Positions 47,460 to 63,515 of a DNA stretch of 64,000 nt are shown in pieces. Position 1 is the first letter of the stretch. Every line of letters begins with the position of its first letter. The position numbers and the translations under genes are program-made. The notes beneath the pieces were generated by a model. It was not told the origin of the DNA and did not search any database. It worked only from the letters and a program-made list of their open reading frames with translations. This stretch comes from a virus: the IMG/VR virus record IMGVR_UViG_3300027833_000015, positions 62,001 to 126,000 of that record; one strand, written 5' to 3'.

Positions 47460-49070
47460 TTATGACCACTTATAATCAGACGCTTTGTAGGTCTTGCTGA
47501 ACTTGGCAAAGTCTTTCTTGATGTATCCTTTGTCTTGTTCTTTGCCTACGAGGTGACGTCCGCGCTTGGAGTCAAGGTAGTCTCTGACGTGAGTATCTTG
47601 TCCACCAGTATGCTTCTTGACATCAGCGTGGGTCTTCGCATATCCTGCTTTGGTCTTCGTTTCGTTACCGCCATGCTTGACGTTATGAGAAGTGTTGTAG
47701 TATCCACCACCTTCGTTTCCGCTCTTGACAGCAAGACCTTCTTGCATAGTCTTCTTGACGATCTTACCCACTGCCTTGTTGTTACCCTTGGCGCGTTTCG
47801 GGTCTTTAGATGCCTTGTTGTTGTAGCGAGTCAGAAGATCTGTGCTCAACTCATCAACCTGCTCGACAGATTCTTTGCGCACTCGATCATACAAGTCGCC
47901 ATTCCACTTCCAGTCTTTCTTATTGAAAGACTTTTTCTTCTTTTCCTTTTGATATTCTGCACTAGACAATTTATTAGTCTTACCAGCATTAGCACGTCCA
48001 GATTCTTCAACCTGCTCGACAGATTCTTTATGACTCAGGCGTGGTTTCTTTCGGGTATCTTTACGACCCTTCATGAAGTCTGCTTTGGACTTAACCTGCT
48101 TGACAGAAGAGTCGCGACTTGTGCTCTGGCCATCGGTAGGATTGATCGTTGATTCTTTCTGTGCGCGTTTGAGTTGTATCTGTTGTGAACGATCAGCACC
48201 GTCCATACGGTTGCTGTGCTTATCCATTGCCTTGGTGAATCGTGCTGCTTGCTTTTGAGTTGCTACACCACTTGCGCTCTTACGAACAGTGGCGATAGTT
48301 TTGTCCATTGTCTTACGCAGGTTCCTTCCACTTGTGGCATTCTTCCTGTCATAACGCTTCAGGAGTTTATTGCTCAACTCATCAACCTGCTCGACAGATT
48401 CGTTTTTCTTTGCGTAACGTGCTTTTTTGACAAGCGCAAACCCTTTAGTTCTATGGCGCAACTTATCGAGTTTAGTCAGACCACCTTTCTTATTGATATT
48501 ATTTGCTGCCCTTGACATACCAAATTCACGGTTCATAGATTTGTGAGAAAGAGTATCAGACCTAGAGTTTTGATCCTTATTCGCTTTCTTCAAATATGAT
48601 ATGCTGGTCGCTTTAGAGAGTTCATCAACTTGCTCGACAGATTCTTTGACTGGTTTGCGATTGAGGATATGTCTGCTGAATGAATCTTTGGAAATATTCT
48701 TATGAGCGGCATCTGCTGCTTTAGGATCTCTGCCATGCTTGACGACGATAGTTTCTTTCTTACCGTTCTTCTGTATACCAGTGCTGTGGGTAGAATACTC
48801 GTACTCTTGCTTCGCTGGTTTTGCTTTCGCTAATGCTGCTTTCTTCGCTTTCTTTTTTGCATTCGCTGCTATTTTGAGATAGTTGGAAGGGATCTTTGCT
48901 TCATCGACTTCAACTTCTTCTTTCTGTTGAATCCTTTTCTTGCCCATGATCTCGATGTAACGTCGAGTGACGGGAGCACGCTTCTTCTTTGAACCCATGT
49001 CAACGGTGTCTTGTGGAATACCAGCATCACCTGCTGTCATTGTTTCTGAGAAGTCACTAAACTTTTTCAT
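47460..49070 (-). CDS. Repeat polyprotein with capsid-targeting-like N-terminus
   Basis: The 536-aa, very Lys-rich product starts MKKFSDFSETMTAGDAG, resembling a T4 capsid-targeting sequence. It carries junction motifs ESVEQVDE or close variants ending at residues 57, 150, 231, 356 and 407, each followed by A, L or S. Between them lie basic segments, several of the form DELSxxLLxRYxxKA. Cleavage at all sites would give six basic peptides of roughly 50-130 aa. It resembles T4 internal head proteins only at the N-terminus. Peptide release by the prohead protease is inference; the repeats are plain in the sequence. Confidence 0.8.
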   Translation of the reverse strand: MKKFSDFSETMTAGDAGIPQDTVDMGSKKKRAPVTRRYIEIMGKKRIQQKEEVEVDEAKIPSNYLKIAANAKKKAKKAALAKAKPAKQEYEYSTHSTGIQKNGKKETIVVKHGRDPKAADAAHKNISKDSFSRHILNRKPVKESVEQVDELSKATSISYLKKANKDQNSRSDTLSHKSMNREFGMSRAANNINKKGGLTKLDKLRHRTKGFALVKKARYAKKNESVEQVDELSNKLLKRYDRKNATSGRNLRKTMDKTIATVRKSASGVATQKQAARFTKAMDKHSNRMDGADRSQQIQLKRAQKESTINPTDGQSTSRDSSVKQVKSKADFMKGRKDTRKKPRLSHKESVEQVEESGRANAGKTNKLSSAEYQKEKKKKSFNKKDWKWNGDLYDRVRKESVEQVDELSTDLLTRYNNKASKDPKRAKGNNKAVGKIVKKTMQEGLAVKSGNEGGGYYNTSHNVKHGGNETKTKAGYAKTHADVKKHTGGQDTHVRDYLDSKRGRHLVGKEQDKGYIKKDFAKFSKTYKASDYKWS

Positions 49071-49099
49071 TACTCTATCCTAGTATTAAACTTATGCAT

Positions 49100-49107
49100 C
49101 TATTTAG
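49100..49107 (-). promoter_or_regulatory. Possible variant late promoter CTAAATAG
   Basis: Minus-strand CTAAATAGAT about 30 bases upstream of the 536-aa gene matches the TATAAATAGAT late boxes except at the first bases. It lies in a 57-base gap; weaker than the seven exact boxes. Confidence 0.4.
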
Positions 49108-49127
49108 TCCAGCAGAGATCTGTGTCT

Positions 49128-49655
49128 CTACTTTCTTTCCAAGTAGAACACTGATTGTTGCGGAGTGGATTTTACTATTATCTTGAATTTCTTTCCGAAG
49201 AATTTCTTCGACATGCGGAGATAGAGTTTCTCTCTACTCGCCAGTGTCTTTGGGTTTGATCCTTTCGGTTTCTCTGCACCGAACGAAACATATTTTGGAT
49301 TTTCTTTCTTTATGAAGTCATCGCATATCTTCATAACAGTAGAGAATATCTTCAGAGCATCTCCACCGCCAGTAACATCATATGATGCTTTTCCGAGGGT
49401 AGTGTATTCCTTGCCGAATTTCGTCAAGACCTGCTTCGACCTTCGACTAAATCCGAGATCCCACATATAATAATCATCATCGTCTGCGTTTTCAGAACCG
49501 ACTATATCGACATCGAGTCGACTTCTTTCTGTCTTTCCGTCTTTGCCTGTGAATTCAGAATCGAACCCGTATGAGTATTCGTCTTCGGCAACCTTCCTGC
49601 CAGTGAACTTATATGAGGAATCAAACGCTTCGTTGAATTGTGAGAATGTTTTCAT
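49128..49655 (-). CDS. Putative internal head protein with capsid-targeting-like N-terminus, 175 aa
   Basis: The product starts MKTFSQFNEAFDSSYKF; M-K-T-F-x-x-F-x-E then Ala is the T4 internal-protein pattern (T4 MKTYQEFIAE then A, from memory). The rest is a small alpha/beta protein (DSEFTGKDGKTERSRLDVD, KIFSTVMKICDDFIKKENPK) of a type I have seen in marine T4-like phages without a function. The basic C-terminus fits DNA association. It starts at the stop of the ParB-like gene. Confidence 0.75.
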   Translation of the reverse strand: MKTFSQFNEAFDSSYKFTGRKVAEDEYSYGFDSEFTGKDGKTERSRLDVDIVGSENADDDDYYMWDLGFSRRSKQVLTKFGKEYTTLGKASYDVTGGGDALKIFSTVMKICDDFIKKENPKYVSFGAEKPKGSNPKTLASREKLYLRMSKKFFGKKFKIIVKSTPQQSVFYLERK

Positions 49656-50239
49656 TATACCTTTCCGTATGAAAACATTATGGGCATCTGCTTGATGCCG
49701 ACTGCCTTTGCAATTCCAAGTCTATGATTGCCTTCCCCCAGAAGAACTTCAACGTCACCGTTCTTTCTTCGGTCGATGGAAACATAACCGTGTTCTTTGA
49801 TTCCGTTCTTCTTGATGTCAGCAGTCAGTTTCTTCATCTCTGCTTCGGTGTTCTTACCAGTGTATCCACCAATCATCTTGCGGTCGTATTCTCTTATCTT
49901 CCACAACTCGCTTACGTCAATCATCGGTGTAAAGTTATCAGCAACCTTTAGGTTACCATTCGCAAATATCTTGATGATGTTCTCAAGTGTTACCTTACCA
50001 CCACATGCTTTTTTCAGTTCGCCTTGTGAACGGACATACTCAGAAAACCCTTCTTGTTTCTGCCCACTGTACTTCCGTGGTCTGTATTGTTTGTACGGAC
50101 TCTTTGGTTTGGCATACTTTGCGAGGACAGCATCCGACTTCTTCATCACCTTATTGATTTCTGCCTGAGAGACAGGTTCAAAGTCTGCGAGTAAGTCGTC
50201 GAGGAAACCCTCTTCGATAAACTGGGAAAATGATTTCAT
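49655..50239 (-). CDS. ParB/sulfiredoxin-like domain protein with capsid-targeting-like N-terminus
   Basis: The 194-aa product starts MKSFSQFIEEGFLDDLL, a capsid-targeting-like head with a predicted cut after Glu9 or Glu10. Residues about 135-190 resemble the ParB N-domain: LTADIKKNGIKEHGYVSIDR, then VEVLLGEGNHRLGIAKAVGI, the GExxxR-type nucleotide-binding box. ParB-like domains bind or hydrolyse CTP/ATP, and some act as nucleases. If packaged, it would enter the host with the DNA. It overlaps the next upstream gene by 4 bases. Confidence 0.7.
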   Translation of the reverse strand: MKSFSQFIEEGFLDDLLADFEPVSQAEINKVMKKSDAVLAKYAKPKSPYKQYRPRKYSGQKQEGFSEYVRSQGELKKACGGKVTLENIIKIFANGNLKVADNFTPMIDVSELWKIREYDRKMIGGYTGKNTEAEMKKLTADIKKNGIKEHGYVSIDRRKNGDVEVLLGEGNHRLGIAKAVGIKQMPIMFSYGKV

Positions 50240-50817
50240 CGTCTCAGTTCTTCACTGGCGACGTAGATCTTTTGGTTAGTGCGAATATGCACTGCTTCGA
50301 ATATGTCCAACCCGAGAATGTTGTCGAGTGGATATGCATTATCAAGCACACGGACTTTATCACCTGCCTTGCAGACTTCTTCGCACGTGCTCGCGAGGAC
50401 TTTGGGTTCAGCGAGTGTATACATGCCACTGGAGAGCATCCCGTCCTTGGCGCAAAACCAAGAGGTGTGTTCTACCAAGTCCAGTGTCGAGTCTAGGTCA
50501 CACGCCTCTACAATTCTCTCCACCCCTGCTTCCCCAAGGTCAAGGTGTTCTTTTATGAGGTAGAGTGCGGACGCATAGGAGGCGAGTTTGGATTTGCCTC
50601 CAGGGACTTTGGCGAGTAATTTCTTGAGGTTGAAGACCAGACGGTGGAATAAGTTGTATGCACTTTTCTCGTCATTGCCTTCGGGCGAGCGGAGTTTCTT
50701 TCCGTCTTTGTCTATAAGACCCATCTTGAATGCATTGCTATCTTCGAAACTGGTTGTCAGCAAACGCAAGAAGCGCAGCGTGTAGACCAAATCAGCAGTT
50801 TTAGAAAGTATACCCAT
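50236..50817 (-). CDS. Conserved T4-like protein of the head-core region
   Basis: The 193-aa product starts MGILSKTADLVYTLRFLRLL and has LFHRLVFNLKKLLAKVPGGK then SYASALYLIKEHLDLGEAGV, a block strongly conserved, as I recall, in marine T4-like phages. The C-terminal 60 residues (SKAGDKVRVLDN-like GDKVRVLDNAYPLDNILGLD) resemble a small KOW/SH3 barrel. Function unknown. One-base overlap with the 121-aa gene and 4-base overlap with the ParB-like gene place it in the same operon. Confidence 0.7.
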   Translation of the reverse strand: MGILSKTADLVYTLRFLRLLTTSFEDSNAFKMGLIDKDGKKLRSPEGNDEKSAYNLFHRLVFNLKKLLAKVPGGKSKLASYASALYLIKEHLDLGEAGVERIVEACDLDSTLDLVEHTSWFCAKDGMLSSGMYTLAEPKVLASTCEEVCKAGDKVRVLDNAYPLDNILGLDIFEAVHIRTNQKIYVASEELRR

Positions 50818-51182
50818 TAAATTGTTTCCAGTCTGGCGACCACTACAGGGTCTCCTATAATTCCTTCAAGATCGCCTTCTTTCAATGCAACAAGGTGTTC
50901 AAGAAATGGTTTTATCACACTGAGATTGTCTGGACCCAACTTGAACAGCAGCATAAGTATTGCTGGTTCATTACCAAACACATTCAATAATATGATAACA
51001 TGATTCAGTATCAATCGTTCACAGAGTTCACCGCCTCTGGTGTATCTGTTTATCAATCTCTTGATGTACTTAAAACGATTAAGTTCTTCGTAAAAATCTT
51101 CCGCATCTATCGCGCGAGGACTATAATAATTATTCGCAGCGTAGATGAGGAAGATTTCATCGTTTAGTTCTTTGACGATCAT
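50817..51182 (-). CDS. Conserved small T4-like protein, 121 aa
   Basis: The product contains DAEDFYEELNRFKYIKRLIN, RYTRGGELCERLILNHVIIL and LLFKLGPDNLSVIKPFLEHL, a helical family common in marine T4-like phages with no assigned role. It is translationally coupled to the 193-aa gene. No membrane segment despite the hydrophobic middle. Confidence 0.7.
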   Translation of the reverse strand: MIVKELNDEIFLIYAANNYYSPRAIDAEDFYEELNRFKYIKRLINRYTRGGELCERLILNHVIILLNVFGNEPAILMLLFKLGPDNLSVIKPFLEHLVALKEGDLEGIIGDPVVVARLETI

Positions 51183-51218
51183 GCAGATTCCTCTATAGTA
51201 TAGAGTTATCTATAACTT

Positions 51219-51557
51219 CTATTCGGAACGCAGTTCCAAGTCAGCAATCATGTTCACCTTAGTCATCCTTCGATCAAGTTCGATATCCAGAGTTCGACCA
51301 TAGTGTTCAATCTGCGACTTATTCATACGCATCAGAGTAGCAGCACTCTTTCGATCATCCTTGACCACTTCAACTTTATCAGAATGGTGCTCTGCTTCCA
51401 CTTTATCCATCTCGTCTTCGATATCAACCAGACTCATAGTCTGATGGTGGATGATACCTAGATCTTCGCTGTCACTCTTCATGAACTTGACAACAAAGGT
51501 GATGACGATACATGCTATTGCTCCGAGAGCAAGAACCTGTGGTGATAATAAATCCAT
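51219..51557 (-). CDS. Small membrane-anchored phage protein
   Basis: The 112-aa product has an N-terminal transmembrane helix (residues about 5-25, QVLALGAIACIVITFVVKFM) followed by an acidic then basic soluble part with a helical C-terminus (SQIEHYGRTLDIELDRRMTK). A predicted Nin-Cout topology follows from the flanking charges. Function unknown; it lies between a polyprotein gene and conserved head-region genes. Confidence 0.7.
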   Translation of the reverse strand: MDLLSPQVLALGAIACIVITFVVKFMKSDSEDLGIIHHQTMSLVDIEDEMDKVEAEHHSDKVEVVKDDRKSAATLMRMNKSQIEHYGRTLDIELDRRMTKVNMIADLELRSE

Positions 51558-51578
51558 AATAATTTCCTTAGTTTACGT

Positions 51579-53048
51579 TTAATCGTGATGAGTTTTTTGA
51601 CCAAGATTATCTTTTGTGTACCCTGTTGCCTTCATGTGCGCCTTATATGCTTTGTGGGAGTCACTACCCTTTCCACCAAGATGCTTCTTGACAAAATCAC
51701 CGTGAAACCCCTTCTTGCTACCCGACACCATGCCATTATCGTGGTTATTAGCATCTGCTGAGTGTTGCTTTACAGCGGATGCAGCGGATGCACCGTGAAC
51801 CTTTTTAATTCGGTTCAGAGTCGCCTTTGCCGCATGTCCTGCGCGTTCTGGGTCGGGGTGACCCATATCTGGATCTGAGTTACCATGGTGCTCAAAATGC
51901 TTTGCTGCAAGATGCCCCAAATCACTATTACTAGACTCCAGAATTTGACGAAGTTCTTCGATCTCCGTCTTCAGTGCATCAACTTCTTCAGTTACTTTTT
52001 TTTTAACAGGATTGACAACTGCCTTGTCGCCATTCTTGAGTTGATCAGAATTACCACGTGCTGGAGATGCTTTAGTAGCACGACCTGCTTTGGATACATC
52101 CTTGTGTCCCTGCTCTTCTTTGTCTTCGATGTCTTTCTCAGACTTCTTGTGCATAGCAATGAAGTCTTTTGACTTGTTAGACTCTTTATCAGCAATGCCT
52201 TCAGGGTTAGTTGCGCCCTTGGTGTGCTCGTCTGATTTCTCATCAAGACCTTGAAGGATAACAGCGAGGTCTTGCAACCATGCAGACTCTTCAACAGATT
52301 CTTTTCGAGTCGCTGGAACCTTTGCATACTTGCCTTTGATCTTGTCACCTGCCCAACCAGATCCAGTAACACGCTTGTCGAATTTTGCGTGAGAAGAGGC
52401 AGGTGGTTTCTTACCGCCATGATCAAACTTTGACATATGGTCTGTTGTTTGAGCGTCTGCTTTTTTCTTATATCGGGTCAACAGTTTCTTTGATAGTTCG
52501 TCCAGTTGCTCTTCGCACAGTCCATCGACAATATCTTCAACAGATTCTTTTCGAGTCGCTGGAACCTTTGCATACTTGCCTTTGATCTTGTCACCTGCCC
52601 AACCAGATCCAGTAACACGCTTGTCGAATTTTGCGTGGGATCCTGCTGGTGGTTTCTTACCGCCATGGTCGTACTTTGACATATGATCTGTTGTTTGAGC
52701 GTCTGCTTTTTTCTTGTATCGGGTCAACAGTTTCTTCGATAGTTCGTCCAGTTGCTCTTCGTCCAGACTCCCGACAAAATCTTCAACAGATTCTTTCTTG
52801 ACGCTTGGCAGGTCAGAGGCATCAGGGTTAGACTTGTCGCCTTTGCGCACTGGTGCTTTCTTGTTATGAGCAGCAGGTGCTTCTTCAACAACGTCTGCTT
52901 TGTTCTTCTTATTGCGGAGGTCAGCAAGGTCGTCGCCTTCGATGTCACCATCGTTATCGACGTCGAGTGCTTTCTGCTTGTCAGAAAGTTTCTTCTCTTG
53001 TACTTCCTGGAACGCAGTCCAGATTGCTTCGATTTCTTTAATGTCCAT
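51579..53048 (-). CDS. Repeat polyprotein with EF-hand-like loop and 82-residue tandem repeats
   Basis: The 489-aa product has a perfect 12-residue EF-hand-type loop at residues 29-40 (DVDNDGDIEGDD). Junctions ending in EEQLDE lie at residues 102 and 184, exactly 82 residues apart and both followed by LSKKLLTRYKKKADAQ; VVEE-A at 56 and VEE-S at 254 are further possible cut sites. The repeat unit is Lys/Gly-rich and ends RKESVE. The C-terminal 230 residues are Ser/His/Lys/Asp-rich and low complexity. No capsid-targeting start is visible, so packaging would rely on the repeats or core binding. A late promoter lies 37 bases upstream. Confidence 0.8.
   Translation of the reverse strand: MDIKEIEAIWTAFQEVQEKKLSDKQKALDVDNDGDIEGDDLADLRNKKNKADVVEEAPAAHNKKAPVRKGDKSNPDASDLPSVKKESVEDFVGSLDEEQLDELSKKLLTRYKKKADAQTTDHMSKYDHGGKKPPAGSHAKFDKRVTGSGWAGDKIKGKYAKVPATRKESVEDIVDGLCEEQLDELSKKLLTRYKKKADAQTTDHMSKFDHGGKKPPASSHAKFDKRVTGSGWAGDKIKGKYAKVPATRKESVEESAWLQDLAVILQGLDEKSDEHTKGATNPEGIADKESNKSKDFIAMHKKSEKDIEDKEEQGHKDVSKAGRATKASPARGNSDQLKNGDKAVVNPVKKKVTEEVDALKTEIEELRQILESSNSDLGHLAAKHFEHHGNSDPDMGHPDPERAGHAAKATLNRIKKVHGASAASAVKQHSADANNHDNGMVSGSKKGFHGDFVKKHLGGKGSDSHKAYKAHMKATGYTKDNLGQKTHHD
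52288..52779 (-). repeat. Two tandem 246-bp coding repeats (82 codons)
   Basis: Units begin at 52288 and 52534, with a third partial unit starting at 52780, at an exact 246-base period. The two full units differ at only a few bases (for example gaagaggca versus gatcctgct), indicating a recent in-frame duplication. Confidence 0.9.
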
Positions 53049-53064
53049 CTTGATACCTATTGTA

Positions 53065-53418
53065 TTATTCGTTTGAGTCGGTTCTATTTATACTATCTTC
53101 ATAGTACACTATTATACTTTGTTGCTGCTCGATGTATCTTCTTATTTCTGCCATGTTTAGTGACAAATTCTCATAGTCAGGAACCGAGATAGCGATATAG
53201 ACGTTGTCACCAGTTTCTTTCCTAAACTCCACCTTGAACTGTTCTTCGTTCTGAGGAGTAACAACGCGCCACTCTATGTCTTGCATTACGACAGCACGTG
53301 GACGACCCTTTGGTTCTATAACCTGATCGACATATTCAATTTTAGTTATTGTCTTTCCAGCACATCCGCTAATTAGCAGTAATAGACTCAAGGTTATCAA
53401 ATACCTTACGTGTACCAT
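53065..53418 (-). CDS. Outer-membrane spanin lipoprotein (Rz1-like)
   Basis: The 117-aa product has a signal sequence and lipobox (YLITLSLLLLISGCAG, Cys at about residue 19). The mature part is beta-rich (RAVVMQDIEWRVVTPQNEEQ) and acidic, not the usual proline-rich Rz1. It starts inside the 3' end of the inner-membrane spanin gene in another frame (50-base overlap), the classical Rz/Rz1 arrangement. It would join the inner spanin to fuse the membranes at lysis. Confidence 0.75.
   Translation of the reverse strand: MVHVRYLITLSLLLLISGCAGKTITKIEYVDQVIEPKGRPRAVVMQDIEWRVVTPQNEEQFKVEFRKETGDNVYIAISVPDYENLSLNMAEIRRYIEQQQSIIVYYEDSINRTDSNE
53085..53092 (-). promoter_or_regulatory. T4-type late promoter TATAAATA for the 489-aa polyprotein gene
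   Basis: Minus-strand TATAAATA followed by GAAC, 36 bases before the ATG at 53048, inside the last codons of the spanin lipoprotein gene. Confidence 0.7.
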
Positions 53419-53749
53419 TGTTTATAATCCTTTCTATCATTTCAGGTTTCCGTGTAGCAAGATTAGTCAGTTGATGATCCCTGAATATCTGCAACACCTC
53501 TTCGCGTTTCTCTTCAGCACTAAGCATGTTGGCAGAAAGTTCAACGTTCAACTCTGCCTGTGCTCTTGCTTGCTCGAGCAACTGCCCAACAGCAGCAGCG
53601 TTAGCAATTGCTGTTTCTTCAAGCACAGCGTTCTCTGCTATAAGGTTGTCTATCTTCTTGACCTGCCACCACACAATACCAGAAACACCACCAACTATAG
53701 TGGTGATGACAACTGCTATGATTGCATACTTCTGTACTGCACCAAACAT
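53369..53749 (-). CDS. Inner-membrane spanin (Rz-like)
   Basis: The 126-aa product has one N-terminal transmembrane helix (KYAIIAVVITTIVGGVSGIV, residues about 7-27) followed by a long helix rich in Glu, Ala and Leu (AENAVLEETAIANAAAVGQL, EEKREEVLQIFRDHQL), the coiled-coil plan of i-spanins. Its overlap with a lipoprotein gene supports the assignment. The C-terminal part (RKPEMIERIINNGTRKVFDN) is a block I have seen in related marine phages. Confidence 0.8.
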   Translation of the reverse strand: MFGAVQKYAIIAVVITTIVGGVSGIVWWQVKKIDNLIAENAVLEETAIANAAAVGQLLEQARAQAELNVELSANMLSAEEKREEVLQIFRDHQLTNLATRKPEMIERIINNGTRKVFDNLESITAN

Positions 53750-53750
53750 T

Positions 53751-56726
53751 TTACTTCATTCCTCTCAGTGCTTTGGTCATCAACACGACGAACTTACGCT
53801 TGTCGACAGGTTTCTGTATAGCATCATGCTTCTTCAGAAGAGCATCGATCTTACCTTTGCTCAACGCCACAGTACGAGTTGGCGAGACGAGAACATCGCC
53901 AGTTTTGTCGCCATGGTTCATAGAGTCTTGCGCGATACGGAGTTGCATGATGATGTTACGATCAGAAGCATCAGCAGAACCTTTGTGGGTTTTGCCCTTG
54001 GCAGTCTTTGTAGTAGTCTTCGCCTTTGGTGCTGCTTTCTTCGCTTTCTTCTCTGCTGCAACTGCTGCTTGTGCCTTTGCTTTCAGAGCGCGGAACTCTG
54101 GACCACGTGGTATGTTCTTTGGACCACCAACCATATCTTGCATCTTCTTGACTACAACATCAGACAGTGCTTCGTTGACTTTGCCCCAGTTACCTGAGAT
54201 TGAATCTGTCATAGTATCTTCTCCAAGTGATTTCTTTTTCTTCCTCAGCGCGACCAGTTTTTCGAGGTAGTGCTTACGCTGCCAGTGCTGGTCTGCTTGT
54301 GTTGGGTTCATTGGTCGTCTTTTGTGATCTGCCTGACCCTGTTTGATTTCTTGGGTAGTGTCTTTGATTTCACGGTTGACCTCTTTCATAGACCACTTTG
54401 GGTTTATATTGAGGACTAACTTTCTGCCTTCTTCAACTTGCCTGAAAGATTCGTTTTTCTGTTCTTTCTTTGCGTCATCGTATGCGCGTCTTGCTACCTG
54501 TTTGATTATCTTGCCTATGGCATGTGTAGTTTGACGTTGCGTTGAAGACATATCGTCCCCGTACACTATTTTGCCCTGCTCCTTCGCCTTTTTTTCTCCC
54601 TTGTTAAAACGAGGGTTTTGGCCAAGATTCCTCTTCTCTCCACTGGCCATTGTTCTTATATAACCTTTCTGTAGAGTTCCGAGTTTCGCTGCCACCTTTG
54701 CATCAACTGTCTTGAAAACATACTTATCAAGTTTGTCTCGACCACCTTGTTTAAATGCAGCAACGCCATCTTTCCTGACGAAGACGACAGACCTGACGAT
54801 CTTATCAAACTCGGGGTCTGCTTCCATTGCCATACGAATTTGATCTTCTAGTGCTTTGTCTTTCGCTTTTCTCTTATTTTTCTTGGTTGGTATTGCGGCA
54901 CCGACAGCAACAATAAAATCACGAATATCGTTCAACACGCCTTCATCAACTTGCTCGACAGATTCCATTCGACCTTGTACCTTATTCGTTGTATAACTAC
55001 CAACCTTGGTAGTCTTATTTGCGTTGTCAGCATACTTCTTTGCTGCTGATGCTGATTTGAAATTCTTTGAAGACGAATCTGCTTTGCCTTTCTCGTCGCG
55101 GAACTGGACGGAGAAATATGCTTCTTCAACTTGCTCAACAGATTCTTTGACACCCTTATACTTCTTTATTCCTTTTGCTACTTCCTTCTTCGCAGCGGTT
55201 TTACTAGAAATCCTCTCGATTTGTTGTATTGCACTTTGGTAAAAATTACTATCATATCTACTGAGAGTTTTTGGGAGTCCTCCAGATTTCTTGAGGTAGT
55301 GGTTTATGGTGTCTTTTGCATCATCAAGTAGTTCTGGTTCTTTCTCTTTTCGCGCTTGCGAACGATCCGCATCGTTCTGTTTACGGATACGCATAACGGA
55401 CGACCTTGTTGGTCCCCAAGTATTGAGACCGTGCACGCCACCGCCACGCGTGGACTCATCAACTTGCTGGACTGCTTCCCTGATGCTGACGTTTGGTGCA
55501 GGGTGTACGCTCGCAGACGGGTGGATCTCGATGAACTTTTCTCTGCCCGTCTCCATGTCCATTATCCTGCCTACAAAATCTTCGTCATTGTTATCTCTAC
55601 CCAGTTCAACATAGACAAAATACTTCTTTCCAACCAGTTCGACGGAAAGTCTTACGATCTTCTTCTTCTTTGACTTCGCCAGTTTGAATATGTTAGTCAC
55701 GACTCGTTTTACTTTTGCTGGTAAGTCGTCTTTGGACAGATAATTAGAAGATGCTTCGAGAACCTGCTGGTATGACTCAGTAGATGCGACCTTCGCTGTA
55801 CCAGTCTGCTTCTTGAGTCCTAACTTGATTCCTTTCTCTCGCTTGGCGCGGAGTTTAGAATCGCCTCTGGTCTTTGCATCGTCAGACTGATGCATAGACT
55901 TCGACAAGTAGTTGTGGACTTTGTCGTTTGACAACTCATCCAACTTGCTTGATTCTTTAGGGACACAATTCGGTACGGTCTTACCACCTTTCTTCTTGGT
56001 GCCTACCTGCTTGTGCGAGTCCCAACATGCTTCTGTTTGGACATCTTGGTGTGCGGGAACCATCTTGACACCAGTAGTGCCATCTGGTTTCTTGAATTTT
56101 ACTGGTTTCTTTGCAGAAGAATTTGGGTCACCTGCGTCTTCAGATACCCGATCATTCTCGCGCTCTTGCTTCTTGGCGAGTCGAACCTTTTGATTCGCGT
56201 GTCGCAGTTTCATTCTTGCTGAGTCCTTTTCTGATTTGGCGTTTTCGACAGATTCCTTTTGCAGTTCCGAACTTTGCATTCTATGCGATACGAGCGAGGA
56301 ATTATCTGCGAGACTAACACCATGAATGCCTTTCTTAGCAAGACCAGTCGCAGTACGATTGACTTTAACTTTCTTTCCATGTAACTCATGACCTTTCTTG
56401 TTCACTACACGAGTTGATCCCATCGGGTGTGGGTTCTTTGCTTCATCAACTTGCTCGACAGATTCGTTCTTGCTGTGTGTCCAACCTCTTGCCTTCAATA
56501 CAAGGTGGGTCGCTTTGCTATCTGCGCGCTTCGTCTCGCCTGTGTCTGGATGGAACATATCATGGGGTACAAACTCGTCAGCAGACTCATACCTGTTCGA
56601 GTGCTTGCTGTAACCACGCTTGTCGTCTTTCTTACGGTCGCGTTGGACAGTTGCCTTGTTGAAAGTTCTCATGTGTTTCGCAACTGGGTTGCCTTTGTTT
56701 GACGGTGGTGTGCTTTTATCTTTCAT
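53751..56726 (-). CDS. Giant basic repeat polyprotein, 991 aa
   Basis: This Lys-rich product carries QVDE/QVEE-type junctions ending at residues 95, 424, 535, 595 and 766, followed by A, S, A, G and G; further E-A or E-L candidates lie at 232, 264, 324 and 852. The segments differ: one with KQVGTKKKGGKTVPNCVPK, one beta-rich (KIVRLSVELVGKKYFVYVEL), one with a hydrophobic helix (DIRDFIVAVGAAIPTKK), and a last Ala/Lys-rich one. The arrangement suggests a precursor of about ten small proteins. It starts in ATGA overlap with the 62-aa gene. Function inferred only. Confidence 0.8.
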   Translation of the reverse strand: MKDKSTPPSNKGNPVAKHMRTFNKATVQRDRKKDDKRGYSKHSNRYESADEFVPHDMFHPDTGETKRADSKATHLVLKARGWTHSKNESVEQVDEAKNPHPMGSTRVVNKKGHELHGKKVKVNRTATGLAKKGIHGVSLADNSSLVSHRMQSSELQKESVENAKSEKDSARMKLRHANQKVRLAKKQERENDRVSEDAGDPNSSAKKPVKFKKPDGTTGVKMVPAHQDVQTEACWDSHKQVGTKKKGGKTVPNCVPKESSKLDELSNDKVHNYLSKSMHQSDDAKTRGDSKLRAKREKGIKLGLKKQTGTAKVASTESYQQVLEASSNYLSKDDLPAKVKRVVTNIFKLAKSKKKKIVRLSVELVGKKYFVYVELGRDNNDEDFVGRIMDMETGREKFIEIHPSASVHPAPNVSIREAVQQVDESTRGGGVHGLNTWGPTRSSVMRIRKQNDADRSQARKEKEPELLDDAKDTINHYLKKSGGLPKTLSRYDSNFYQSAIQQIERISSKTAAKKEVAKGIKKYKGVKESVEQVEEAYFSVQFRDEKGKADSSSKNFKSASAAKKYADNANKTTKVGSYTTNKVQGRMESVEQVDEGVLNDIRDFIVAVGAAIPTKKNKRKAKDKALEDQIRMAMEADPEFDKIVRSVVFVRKDGVAAFKQGGRDKLDKYVFKTVDAKVAAKLGTLQKGYIRTMASGEKRNLGQNPRFNKGEKKAKEQGKIVYGDDMSSTQRQTTHAIGKIIKQVARRAYDDAKKEQKNESFRQVEEGRKLVLNINPKWSMKEVNREIKDTTQEIKQGQADHKRRPMNPTQADQHWQRKHYLEKLVALRKKKKSLGEDTMTDSISGNWGKVNEALSDVVVKKMQDMVGGPKNIPRGPEFRALKAKAQAAVAAEKKAKKAAPKAKTTTKTAKGKTHKGSADASDRNIIMQLRIAQDSMNHGDKTGDVLVSPTRTVALSKGKIDALLKKHDAIQKPVDKRKFVVLMTKALRGMK

Positions 56727-56911
56727 GGGTTGCCTTTGTAATTTAGTGTAACTTCTTTACCCTGATATGTTGCTTCGGTGAACTCTTTAAACGACTTCAT
56801 GCCCGTCTCATTTGGCGTCAACTTCTTTGCTCGACGAACAGAGGCATCCGTGCCCCACTCATGCTTACATGGATCATACTGATCTGATTTCTTGTCCGTC
56901 TTTTTTCGCAT
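56723..56911 (-). CDS. Small protein with internal capsid-targeting-like start
   Basis: The 62-aa product begins MRKKTDKKSDQYDPCKHEWG, a type of short opening common in marine T4-like phages. Residue 38 is a Met starting MKSFKEFTEATYQGK, a capsid-targeting-like head with a predicted cut after Glu9. That ATG, at 56800, may be a second start giving a 25-aa peptide. The stop overlaps the giant polyprotein start (ATGA), so the two are coupled. Which start is used is not decided by the sequence. Confidence 0.65.
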   Translation of the reverse strand: MRKKTDKKSDQYDPCKHEWGTDASVRRAKKLTPNETGMKSFKEFTEATYQGKEVTLNYKGNP

Positions 56912-58854: not shown

Positions 58855-59853
58855 TTATTTGATTCGTGATGCGAATGGGGTTATTCTTTTCTTCATCGCT
58901 TTCTGAAGACCAGCATTCTTTGATGCGTTTACTGTGGCATATCGTTTCTTGCCGCCACGGACAGGGTTTGGTATAAACTCTGCGCCAGTTGGTGCAGGGA
59001 TAAACTCTGCGCTTGACGGTATGTCGCTTCCTTCCTCGACTTTCTCAACTGCGTCCAACCATTTACGCTTAAACGTCTCTTCGCCCAGTTGGACTATTAT
59101 ATAGTTGCTACCGAGGTGTGTTATAATACCGACTTCGTCAGACTCCCTGACAACCACTTGGTCGCCCAGTTCAAACAGTTCGCCTTTGACAAACTTCTCT
59201 CGAGTCTCTGATACTGGTTCCAGTTCAACGTGCCGACTGAATACTGTATTCTCTTTGAGTCCCATACCTGAGCGCACATCCATATAGAGTTTCTTGGCGT
59301 CCTTGTTATTCATGCCACCCAGACCCTGCGAGAAATCAGCAAAGTTGTTGTCAGCAGCATGCTTACGCATCTTAGATGCCGACATACCATCAACTCCATC
59401 TGAATCTGGATCACGTTCACCAGCAGAGACGATATTGATTGACTGGAAGTTATAGAAACCGTGGTTGCCCTTCACACCATTGTACTTGTCGAGCAAGGTC
59501 TTGAACTCACGGACTCGGTCAGAACCAACAACCATAGTGACGGTCTTGAACCCTTGGTCGTAGAGATACGATGCTGCGTCAAATGGAGTGCGGACTTTCT
59601 TGTTCACGATAATCCTTCGCGCGTGTCTCGGGAACATCTTACGAACGTGCTTGACTTTATCGGTGTATGATAGTGGGTTCTTCTTGGCGTCTTGCGACTG
59701 AGACAAGAATACGAAATATGGGTTCTTACCAGATGCCTTGCCGAGTTTGTCGAGAAGTTTCTCGTGCCCGACAGTCGGTGGGTTCATACGACCGAATGTG
59801 AAGTATGCTGCCTTGCCGTCTTCAATAAGGTAGTCTTTGAATGATATAGGCAT
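58855..59853 (-). CDS. HIGH-motif nucleotidyltransferase with capsid-targeting-like head and KOW-like tail
   Basis: The 332-aa product begins MPISFKDYLIEDGKAAYF, a variant capsid-targeting head (F-x-x-Y-x-x-E then D). Residues 15-190 are a cytidylyltransferase/NMNAT-like domain: FTFGRMNPPTVGHEKLLDKL (the GxxxPxxxGH signature) and GMSASKMRKHAADNN (the ISxSxxR-like site). Residues about 230-270 form a KOW-like barrel (GDQVVVRESDEVGIITHLGS). The basic C-terminus ends KKRITPFASRIK. Similar enzymes occur in marine T4-like phages; the substrate is unknown. A possible junction VEKVEE-G lies before the tail. Confidence 0.8.
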   Translation of the reverse strand: MPISFKDYLIEDGKAAYFTFGRMNPPTVGHEKLLDKLGKASGKNPYFVFLSQSQDAKKNPLSYTDKVKHVRKMFPRHARRIIVNKKVRTPFDAASYLYDQGFKTVTMVVGSDRVREFKTLLDKYNGVKGNHGFYNFQSINIVSAGERDPDSDGVDGMSASKMRKHAADNNFADFSQGLGGMNNKDAKKLYMDVRSGMGLKENTVFSRHVELEPVSETREKFVKGELFELGDQVVVRESDEVGIITHLGSNYIIVQLGEETFKRKWLDAVEKVEEGSDIPSSAEFIPAPTGAEFIPNPVRGGKKRYATVNASKNAGLQKAMKKRITPFASRIK

Positions 59854-59854
59854 C

Positions 59855-60241
59855 TTACTTGTCGTCCTTACCTTTGTTTGCTTTGCGTTCTCTGTCCTGC
59901 TTGCGTATCGCTGGAATCATTTTCTTGGCCAGACGCGCAATGACTGCTGACTTCTTTGCCAGACGCTTTTCAATATCAGTCCGTCGAGAGAAAGACAATT
60001 CATCTTTGCCCGCACCCTTGGTCAACTTCTTCATCATTACAATTCTTGCTTGCCTGTTAGCGCGTTTCTTGACAGTGTCCATGTTAGGCGTTCTGCGCGC
60101 AGCACGTTCGCGACCAATCTTCATACGATTCTTCATCTTCTTCATGCGAAGAGATGCTTTGATTCTCTGTGAATGCGTGAGTGCCTCATCAGTCTGTTCG
60201 ACCTCTTGACTCTCCATAAACTCTATTAACGACTTCGGCAT
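59855..60241 (-). CDS. Highly basic internal-head-type protein with capsid-targeting-like head
   Basis: Start at the ATG at 60241, overlapping the upstream stop region; 128 aa. The head MPKSLIEFMESQEVEQTDEA has both a targeting-like F-x-E then S and a QTDE-A junction. The remainder is extremely Arg/Lys-rich and helical (KASLRMKKMKNRMKIGRERA, KRLAKKSAVIARLAKKMIPA), a family I recognise in marine T4-like phages. The charge suits DNA condensation in the head. It abuts the nucleotidyltransferase gene by one base. Confidence 0.8.
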   Translation of the reverse strand: MPKSLIEFMESQEVEQTDEALTHSQRIKASLRMKKMKNRMKIGRERAARRTPNMDTVKKRANRQARIVMMKKLTKGAGKDELSFSRRTDIEKRLAKKSAVIARLAKKMIPAIRKQDRERKANKGKDDK

Positions 60242-60242
60242 T

Positions 60243-61454
60243 CTACTTCCTGTTAGTATTCTCCCAACCCTTGAGGATATCAGGAGAGAAATTGTTGTAC
60301 GAGAATTCCATACGGTTGACCAGTTTGACAGCACCACCACCCAGTTTGTCTATAACGACAAAACCTTCTTGGTCAGTTACTCTATAACCTTTCTTGGTCC
60401 GTACAAAAGCATCGATTCCCGCTAACTTGCTCATTCTATTTATAAGGATCAATTTCGCTAATACTATTTTCTTTTGCAATTCGAACATTTGTATTAGTGC
60501 AGCAGTGTTACCTTTCGAGAAGAACTTCAACAGCAGGTTCAACTTCTGCTGTTGTGCCTTCTTGCCTTTCTCTGACTTACGCTTGCTGATCTCTTTGGTG
60601 TATTTAGTAGTCAACCAAGATTGTAGTTTGAGGACGTGAATCTTGCTATCAGGCAGAACTGTACCTGCTCGGACAAACGTGTTGTTGTATTGCTCGATCA
60701 ATTGGGGCAACTCGGGGTGCGCTTCCAACTCACGGAGCACACCACCTGAAATCTTGCGGAATATCTTTCCTGCGTCCTTGAGGTATGCGTCCACCTTCTT
60801 GGTGTTCTCAGCAGTCATGGTCGCTGTTCCGCTGAAATCGCGCAGCATGGCATCCTGTGACCAAATCTTCTTGGTCTTCTTCAGACGCTTCACGTCCACG
60901 CCATAAGACGCTGACATATTCTCGAATGAGTCGCCTTTGTATGTGGTGTGCCACACGATACCGATCTGCGCATCACGCACTGCCTTCGCTGCTGCGTCCT
61001 TATATGGGATTGCGTACACGAGTGTGTTCGGGTGGAATGTGGTGTATTTCTCACCGTCTATCCGAGTCGCCTCAACATCCGAGGCACTGAACAGGAAGTC
61101 GCCTTGTATGACACCTTTGATGCCAAGTAGTGGTAGCAACTCAAGAGCAGCATTCATCTTCTGGTTGAGGTCACCCGAGGTGTCTGCATCAACGTCTGCT
61201 TTGGTCTTATATACTTTGGGGTTCTTGTTGAAGATACCCTTCTTGGCGACAAAGAATTTGCCATCCGATGGATCTGTTCCAGCGAATATTGCTGGTGCGC
61301 CATCCCACTTCACTGAGACGTCACCTTTGTGTTTCCCGTGAAGCATGTTGCGCAATGAGACCAGACCAGCGATTGCTTGTCGAGTCCCGTCAACTCCACC
61401 ATAGAGGACTTTGTCCTCGATGTGGGTCATGTGAGTATTCTTGTCACCTGCCAT
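60243..61454 (-). CDS. DUF6267-type protein with nucleic-acid-ligase-like motifs
   Basis: The 403-aa product opens NTHMTHIEDKVLYGGVDGT and has SVKWDGAPAIF (KxDG at residues 49-52, ligase motif I position), VIQGDFLF (118-122, motif III-like), EGFVV (363-367, motif IV-like) and AVKLVNR (375-381, motif V-like). Residues 190-350 are a helical insert. The set matches covalent nucleotidyltransferases (DNA/RNA ligases, capping enzymes) in order. The family is known to me as DUF6267 in T4-like phages; catalysis is inferred. It lies between small early genes and head genes. Confidence 0.7.
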   Translation of the reverse strand: MAGDKNTHMTHIEDKVLYGGVDGTRQAIAGLVSLRNMLHGKHKGDVSVKWDGAPAIFAGTDPSDGKFFVAKKGIFNKNPKVYKTKADVDADTSGDLNQKMNAALELLPLLGIKGVIQGDFLFSASDVEATRIDGEKYTTFHPNTLVYAIPYKDAAAKAVRDAQIGIVWHTTYKGDSFENMSASYGVDVKRLKKTKKIWSQDAMLRDFSGTATMTAENTKKVDAYLKDAGKIFRKISGGVLRELEAHPELPQLIEQYNNTFVRAGTVLPDSKIHVLKLQSWLTTKYTKEISKRKSEKGKKAQQQKLNLLLKFFSKGNTAALIQMFELQKKIVLAKLILINRMSKLAGIDAFVRTKKGYRVTDQEGFVVIDKLGGGAVKLVNRMEFSYNNFSPDILKGWENTNRK

Positions 61455-62102: not shown

Positions 62103-63515
62103 TCAGAATACTTTGACAAAATAACTGGACTGGTCAACGTCCGACTGTGCATAGCGAAATAACTTGGTGGCGACATCGTCTCTCTTTGTAGCACTGCCTG
62201 CCTGTACACGATCAATGAATAGCATACATATCAATTTACTATTTTTGAATTTGTAATCCTTTGCAGCAAGTTCGGCATAGAAGTCTTCTTCTTTCAGAAT
62301 CTTCTTTGATAATTTTGATTTGGAGTTGTGTTTTTTATATAAGTCCCACAGCAACTCTTGGTATGCACCATTCTTTTCATTAGACTTTATCCATGACACA
62401 AGTCCCGACTCAGTATCATAACCATTGTAGATGCCTTTACTACTTCCAAACACTTCACGACAATAGAAGTCAATATTACCACCGCCAATCTTTCCACCAG
62501 CAGCATCACCACCTTTGACTTCCCCTTGCCAAGAAGTCTCACCACTAAATGTACGAAACTGCACATCACCAACATTGGTGTGTATGTAGATATCTTGAGA
62601 GTTGAAGAACTCGCCCGTCTGCCCGAAAGTGAATCCCTCGTACTTGTAAGACTTCTGTCCAGCACGCGACTTCGGAGTGCCATATTCTTTGACCATTGCC
62701 TTTGAATTTTTTCCAACCTTCTTTAGAGAGATACCCAGCAGCGAAACTTTGGTGCCAGATCCCAAATTCCAAACTTTAGCATTGAGTTCGCCCCAACTGC
62801 TTGTGCATCCATCAAGAGGTTTGCTTGTGGGTGGTTCTGTTGATGCCCATATGTCTCCAGGATTCCACTTGTCGTTTGAGAAACTTCCAGGTGCCTGCTG
62901 GTCTTCAGATTTTTTATCTATCTTATGTGTTGTCTTTTTTGCCTCATAGAGATTCTTCATGAAGGTAGAGTCACGATGAAAGTATACTGGTGATGTCATC
63001 TTCTTGCCGAATTTTTTAAACAGTTCGTTTGCCGACTTCAGATAAACATCAGTCTCTATCCAATCTGATGGACCATTCTTTTGACAATCTTTAAGGGATG
63101 CGGATGCTTTAACATACTGTTCACCCTTCTTTAAGTTGGCATCGGACACACAATCGACTTGCTTTTTTGCGACGTTGAAGACATATGAGCAATAGTAACA
63201 TTGAAGAGACTCCGTATATTGGGTGTCTTCTGCACCACCACCAGAACCTGCACCACCACCAAAATCTTTATCTTTGAAAACTTTATTGTATGAAACAGTA
63301 GTGATGACTGATTTTTTCTTGCCAACATAATAGGATAGGGTCTTTGCTTTCTTGTCATATCTAACACCATTGACAACCTTTCCAGACTTATTCTTACCTA
63401 TAATAAATGGTCGTTTATCATCTATCTTTCTCTGAAAAATATCAGGTCTCTTGGTTCCAGCATACGGACCACCAGATGCGATTTTTGTCATATCTCCTGA
63501 TTTCAATTCTGCCAT
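62103..63515 (-). CDS. Conserved marine T4-like protein of unknown function, 470 aa
   Basis: The product begins MAELKSGDMTKIASGGPYAG and has a glycine-rich linker (FGGGAGSGGGAEDTQYTESL) followed by a CxxC pair (CYYCSYVFN). The middle has FSNDKWNPGDIWAST and KVSLLGISLKKVGKNS. VGDVQFRTFSGETSWQGEVK then GGDAAGGKIGGGNIDFYC lies near residues 315-355; D...E-x-K spacing there would fit a PD-(D/E)xK nuclease core, but this is weak. The family recurs in T4-like phages as I recall. Function open. Confidence 0.65.
   Translation of the reverse strand: MAELKSGDMTKIASGGPYAGTKRPDIFQRKIDDKRPFIIGKNKSGKVVNGVRYDKKAKTLSYYVGKKKSVITTVSYNKVFKDKDFGGGAGSGGGAEDTQYTESLQCYYCSYVFNVAKKQVDCVSDANLKKGEQYVKASASLKDCQKNGPSDWIETDVYLKSANELFKKFGKKMTSPVYFHRDSTFMKNLYEAKKTTHKIDKKSEDQQAPGSFSNDKWNPGDIWASTEPPTSKPLDGCTSSWGELNAKVWNLGSGTKVSLLGISLKKVGKNSKAMVKEYGTPKSRAGQKSYKYEGFTFGQTGEFFNSQDIYIHTNVGDVQFRTFSGETSWQGEVKGGDAAGGKIGGGNIDFYCREVFGSSKGIYNGYDTESGLVSWIKSNEKNGAYQELLWDLYKKHNSKSKLSKKILKEEDFYAELAAKDYKFKNSKLICMLFIDRVQAGSATKRDDVATKLFRYAQSDVDQSSYFVKVF

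Follow-up and report, generated by a model that had tools for sequence, protein, structure and literature searches.

Likely capsid-cargo polyproteins, divided by Glu junctions, in a T4-like phage

The comparative sequence data suggest that three long chains encoded by a T4-like phage are likely to be capsid-cargo polyproteins processed by the prohead protease. Comparative sequence evidence supports this interpretation, which an earlier note had made from the sequence alone; cleavage is inferred, without cleavage or N-terminal data, and location in the virion of this phage is likewise an inference.

The window analysed here is a stretch of 64,000 nucleotides, bases 62001-126000 of a 153,883-bp virus contig. 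Outside the window, the contig encodes a gp20 portal (PF07230), gp21 (PF03420, Peptidase_S77), a gp22 scaffold (PF25623) and gp23 (PF07068). As these four are of T4 type, the phage is T4-like. The presence of gp21 is shown by sequence: the Peptidase_S77 match has an E value of 2.2e-38, and the protein matches the T4 gp21 structure 5jbl. In the gp23 of this phage, FMTE stands where cleavage is expected, at the place of the T4 site FLTE. The acidic gp22-type scaffold is encoded separately, elsewhere in the genome, and a Pfam scan of the three chains found no match to the gp22-type T4 scaffold family.

The three chains and their junctions

The three ORFs (Table 1) have the positions and sizes that the earlier note gave, at 536, 489 and 991 aa, all on the minus strand. 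Its description of all three as basic holds only in part. Among 139 minus-strand genes, the net charge of the 536-aa protein ranks first (+11.9 per 100 aa) and that of the 991-aa protein third (+8.5), against a median of -3.3; the 489-aa protein, at +0.8 per 100 aa, is nearly neutral. This protein is the weaker member, and treatment of the three chains as equally good examples was rejected.

The chains contain 11 junction copies: ESVEQVDE (five), ESVEQVEE (two), EAVQQVDE (one), ESFRQVEE (one) and EEQLDE (two). Four ESVEQVDE-type copies lie in the 536-aa protein and five in the 991-aa protein; both EEQLDE copies are in the 489-aa protein. L follows in five copies and A, G and S in two each, which bears out the claim of about a dozen copies followed mostly by A, G, S or L. 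Across 5000 residue shuffles of each protein, no single shuffle contained the motif more than once, and the junction regular expression had no match in any other predicted gene of the 154-kb genome. A related copy, EVEQTDE followed by A, occurs in the gene at 59855-60340. Within the window, the junction codons are nearly identical (GAA TCT GTC GAG CAR GTT GAT GAR).

The claimed division into about 20 segments is also only partly upheld. Strict junctions give ~14 segments, and reaching ~20 requires looser sites (EEVEVDE, ESSKLDE, VQTE, ESYQQVLE and the N-terminal MKKFSDFSE), several of which are backed by homologues. The segments are mostly 50-170 aa and are therefore small domains, not the internal peptides that had been proposed. 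Almost no functional matches to the modules were found in Pfam and PHROGs. An AlphaFold model of the 991-aa chain was poor (mean pLDDT 41) and no fold claim is drawn from it; because of this low confidence, the folding of the chain and the exposure of its linkers cannot be verified.

Conservation at the junctions centres on the Glu. Among homologues below 70% identity, 86% retain the junction Glu; the figure is 38% for the remaining Glu positions of these proteins and 34% for Glu in other proteins. The 10 positions upstream are nevertheless less conserved at junctions (2.4 identical, versus 3.4 and 4.2). Of 146 homologous module starts that lack the motif, 122 have Glu at P1; P3 is V, I, L, M or F in 67% (background 26%), Asp is enriched 6-fold at P2 and Ala 7-fold at P1'. 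The consensus derived from homology only is thus V/L/I-D-E followed by A. T4 gp21 cuts after Glu in L/I-X-E (PMC9026906). The claim that the junctions fit the gp21 rule stands: QVDE, QVEE and QLDE are all hydrophobic-x-E, and the homology-only consensus agrees. The fit is not exact, in that P3 is mostly V here, whereas T4 gp21 prefers L/I, and P3 is not hydrophobic in about one third of the homology-defined sites (for example, TDE).

Table 1. Positions of the chains, junctions and neighbouring genes in the window
Feature	Position	Strand	Remarks
Polyprotein 1, 536 aa	47460..49070	-	N-terminal MKKFSDFSE targeting-like sequence and ~6 mostly basic modules; most basic protein of the genome
T4-type capsid-targeting-like N-terminus MKKFSDFSE	49044..49070	-	start of polyprotein 1
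Looser junction EEVEVDE, then A	48900..48920	-	polyprotein 1; from sequence, homologous segment found elsewhere
Junction ESVEQVDE, then L	48621..48644	-	polyprotein 1
Junction ESVEQVDE, then L	48378..48401	-	polyprotein 1
Junction ESVEQVEE, then S	48003..48026	-	polyprotein 1
Junction ESVEQVDE, then L	47850..47873	-	polyprotein 1
175-aa protein	49128..49655	-	neighbour; targeting-like start MKTFSQFNE, then A
194-aa protein	49655..50239	-	targeting-like start MKSFSQFIEE, then G; relative L067 has MKSFSQFIRE, then G, last Glu kept
Polyprotein 2, 489 aa	51579..53048	-	near neutral; two EEQLDE junctions
Tandem duplication of junction-plus-module unit	52288..52779	-	within polyprotein 2; 2 x 246 nt, 92% identical
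Junction EEQLDE, then L	52743..52760	-	polyprotein 2
Junction EEQLDE, then L	52497..52514	-	polyprotein 2
Polyprotein 3, 991 aa	53751..56726	-	DUF7230 N-terminus and ~9 mostly basic modules
Junction ESVEQVDE, then A	56442..56465	-	polyprotein 3; L023 and L063 continue with different modules
Junction VQTE, then ACWDSHKQVG...VPNCVPK module	56031..56042	-	polyprotein 3; module is phrog_9737
Junction ESSKLDE, then L	55935..55955	-	polyprotein 3
Junction ESYQQVLE, then A	55755..55778	-	polyprotein 3; L063 has ESVEQVDE, then A, instead
Junction EAVQQVDE, then S	55455..55478	-	polyprotein 3
Junction ESVEQVEE, then A	55122..55145	-	polyprotein 3
Junction ESVEQVDE, then G	54942..54965	-	polyprotein 3
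Junction ESFRQVEE, then G	54429..54452	-	polyprotein 3; L023 has ESVEQVEE
Cytidylyltransferase/NMNAT-like protein	58855..59853	-	targeting-like start MPISFKDYLIE; homologues are virion proteins of S-CREM2 and S-SCSM1
Lys/Arg-rich helical module protein	59855..60340	-	likely start 60241; prefix MPKSLIEFMESQEVEQTDE, then module ALTHSQRIK...
DUF6267 protein	60243..61454	-	anchor of cargo locus; phage C48C1 ortholog starts MMLDFKNFITE
470-aa protein	62103..63515	-	homologue of S-SCSM1 ORF90, a virion protein

Modules are exchanged as cassettes at the Glu junctions

Two checks suggested with the original interpretation were a search for the junction motif in other marine T4-like phages and for its co-occurrence with gp21. 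A scan of IMG/VR for ESVEQVDE returned 59 stretches, which served as the set of relatives, and many of these lie in Lys/Arg-rich proteins of 400-1300 aa. A gp21 homologue was found in 9 of 9 records longer than 100 kb that were tested, with only a distant match (32%) in record G003. A tblastn search of annotated phages with the two main proteins and the L047 chain gave no match at the limits used; unlike these queries, a short module query recovered cyanophage homologues.

Module order and company differ between the 991-aa protein and its IMG/VR relatives. In L063, window residues 13-108 are fused directly to 314-495; in L023, the window module 528-595 is placed after the first junction; and in L020, 588-775 lies ahead of 417-536 in a single chain that also holds modules of the 536-aa protein. 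Modules of polyprotein 1 recur in the polyproteins of both L020 and L046.

The ends of partial BLAST alignments were compared with the junctions, with the motif masked beforehand to prevent attraction by the shared motif. These ends fell at junctions in 180 of 616 cases (29%), where the null gives 10.5% (sd 1.1); the corresponding figures for proteins that contain three or more junctions are 41% and 11.8%. The offsets from alignment end to junction peak sharply at exactly 0 on both sides. In DNA comparison, L023 and L046 share a 360-nt module at 99.2% identity, which stops at the junction on either side. Across contigs, the motif Ser is encoded by TCN in 63 of 80 copies and by AGY in 17; the peptide is therefore kept, and not just the DNA. 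These data show that the segments between junctions are independent evolutionary units, swapped as cassettes at the Glu junctions. The chains also meet the criterion for a viral polyprotein of several units per ORF with protease-type sites between them.

One module gain or loss is visible among close relatives: the duplication at 52288-52779 is missing in L067, where the 489-aa protein has a 228-aa counterpart that lacks the repeated module.

Targeting-like N-termini and the neighbouring putative cargo locus

The T4 capsid-targeting sequence (CTS) has been described (PMC9026906). As applied here, a targeting sequence has about 10 aa, aromatic positions and a terminal E. Besides the 536-aa protein, the neighbours at 49128, 49655, 56774-56800, 58855 and 59855 have targeting-like N-termini; none is evident in the 489- and 991-aa chains. 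With predicted cuts marked, the neighbour starts include MKTFSQFNE/A, MKSFSQFIEE/G, MKSFKEFTE/A and MPISFKDYLIE/D. Such N-termini occur in 13.5% of ORFs in these loci versus 1.6% expected, in an ORF set that is redundant.

At L067:15672-17316, three consecutive genes have near-identical targeting-like starts (MKSFSQFIRE, MKTFFQFNEA and MKSFSQFNEA), where the window has two. At 56723-56911, a 62-aa ORF carries MKSFKEFTEATYQGKEVTLN and then a stop; the L023 counterpart is a full 131-aa protein (ending NYWSRKAWNC), and the window ORF therefore looks like a deletion remnant.

The Lys/Arg-rich module adjoining DUF6267 allows internal junctions to be compared with targeting-sequence cleavage sites. 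Across 61 proteins of this family, Glu precedes the module in 57 as scored, and two further cases gain the Glu once register errors of the script are corrected. The prefix before the module ranges from 10 residues (MLSFKQFVSE) to a 336-residue multi-module chain. In phage C48C1, MLSFKQFVSE, a 10-residue prefix of T4 targeting type, is followed by VLDATQRR; another member has MSKPMGLKEFIKVVESPDE followed by ALTLPQR. L085 has a 39-residue propeptide ending in TTDE and then ALDFSQRR. L046 has a related propeptide, an insert of three modules with a Glu junction at the end of each, and finally RESVEQVDE before AFSVAQR. The comparison across this series is evidence that the internal junction performs the role of the targeting-sequence cleavage site.

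The window copy of the module is modelled as a confident helical domain (pLDDT 87), with low confidence in the linker around the predicted site (residues 11-20, mean pLDDT 59). The helical model has no fold match in the PDB. The module type at 59855-60340 is common in marine T4-like phages, with 61 copies in the fetched loci. Another very long chain, a 1228-aa ORF at L115:3146-6829 in a DUF6267 locus, carries the module from residue 1124 after ...WESVDE.

Virion proteomes of related cyanophages bear on location. In S-CREM2 virions, gp136 (start MQTFSMFFSE), gp137, gp154 (start MKNFSSFLTE) and gp160 (CW module) were detected (PMC10665884), and ORFs 29, 89, 90, 91, 92 and 93 are marked as virion proteins in the S-SCSM1 record (PMC9602691). 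S-SCSM1 ORF91 is homologous to window 58855-59853 and ORF90 to window 62103-63515. S-SCSM1 ORF29 and S-CREM2 gp160 contain CW...NCV modules of the same kind as those in the 991-aa protein. Both studies warn that carry-over might account for some of these detections (PMC10665884, PMC9602691), and the published proteomes are at protein level only, so that processing is not visible in them.

Proposed processing, rival explanations and known systems

In the mechanism proposed here, the chains would enter the prohead core together with the scaffold. For the 536-aa protein and several neighbours, entry would be via the N-terminal capsid-targeting sequence; the other two chains have no obvious signal. 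Cleavage by gp21 after the Glu of each V-D/E-E junction would then yield ~14-20 separate domains, and these would remain in the head with the DNA and probably be injected. The junction would have a second role as a repeated, in-frame seam of ~24 nt for the gain, loss and exchange of single cargo modules. Cleavage, retention and virion location in this phage, injection and module function are all inferred, and it is by analogy that the chains are proposed to work like a T4 internal protein.

One alternative is that the repeated sequence serves inside the chain as a short linear motif for targeting or core binding, through which a long chain binds the scaffold repeatedly and stays uncut. T4 targeting sequences do bind the core, mutation separates cleavage from targeting (PMC9026906), and cleavage data are absent for these chains. 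This explanation is nevertheless unlikely. Conservation is concentrated in the final residues (V-D-E then A), which fits a cleavage end and not the Phe/Tyr residues of targeting; the Glu is conserved while the upstream residues vary; and orthologues swap targeting-sequence cleavage sites for internal junctions one for one.

A second alternative is that the chains are expendable scaffold or core, like T4 gp22, gp67 and gp68, with the pieces made by gp21 leaving the head. In T4, cutting of the core proteins gives many fragments, most of which leave, and in SPN3US long propeptides undergo several cuts (PMC9026906, PMC10052503). Against this, the genome has a separate acidic gp22-type scaffold (PF25623), two of the chains are strongly basic, all are built of diverse exchangeable modules, and related modules have been detected in mature virions, which leaves the explanation very doubtful. 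Harder still to sustain is a third, in which the motif merely marks a recombination seam or is a neutral linker that shuffling left behind, and takes no part in processing. The nearly identical junction codons in the window and the exchange tracts that end at motif DNA speak for it. However, the split of Ser codons (TCN 63, AGY 17 of 80) shows a peptide kept beyond shared DNA descent, and the Glu persists where the remainder of the motif is absent. Finally, the chains might be cut not by gp21 in the prohead but later, once injected or in the course of infection, by a different Glu-specific protease of the host or of other origin. Sequence does not by itself identify the protease, but this last alternative is all but ruled out: in this phage group the enzyme known to cut at Glu is gp21, and sites of the same kind close the targeting sequences of genes nearby.

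Processing of capsid-cargo polyproteins by gp21 remains the preferred reading. A bolder form of it, towards which the evidence leans only slightly, is that marine T4-like phages package one translation product from which the prohead protease makes many injected effector domains in fixed ratio, with the cleavage-site DNA as the exchange seam of a plug-and-play set. A polyprotein form, if real, would account for many of the large proteins of marine T4-like phages that are listed as hypothetical or 'structural', and one simple rule, to cut after the junction Glu, would predict many injected phage domains. It would also represent a natural route for loading several proteins into a phage head from one gene, and a clear case of one short sequence acting as both protease site and recombination seam.

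The suggestion that such a strategy had not been described held within the open-access literature searched, where no description was found (most subscription papers lie outside it). Several known systems share parts of it. Inner-body and ejection proteins are processed by gp175 and gp245 in phiKZ and SPN3US, where the protease is also a divergent gp21 type, P1 is Glu and the head cargo is destined for the host. The products known there, however, are mature proteins that have lost an N-terminal propeptide, in some cases through repeated cuts, and not multi-cargo chains. T4 gp22, gp67 and gp68 likewise have several Glu sites for the prohead protease in a single protein, but these are scaffold or core proteins whose fragments mostly leave, whereas the chains described here are modular, mostly basic and present alongside the phage's own gp22-type scaffold. 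The cyanophage T4-GC119-type structural protein, S-SCSM1 ORF29 and ORF92, and S-CREM2 gp160 are multi-module and basic, with CW...NCV-like modules often after E or D, and those of S-SCSM1 and S-CREM2 are found in virions. They differ in having fewer and more variable junctions, without ESVEQVDE repeats, and are annotated only as structural, virion or hypothetical.

The closest likeness is to T4 IPI, IPII, IPIII and Alt, which are small basic head cargo with an N-terminal MKxFxxF...E targeting sequence, a Glu before the mature domain and gp21 encoded in the genome. This simple form is present in the window, in neighbours of the chains. The T4 proteins have one mature domain each, whereas the chains consist of many fused domains, with internal cleavage-type junctions and cassette exchange. 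Because two chains lack a clear targeting sequence and each chain holds many domains, they are not classed as plain T4 internal proteins but as a variant of them, apparently unreported in the open-access literature searched.
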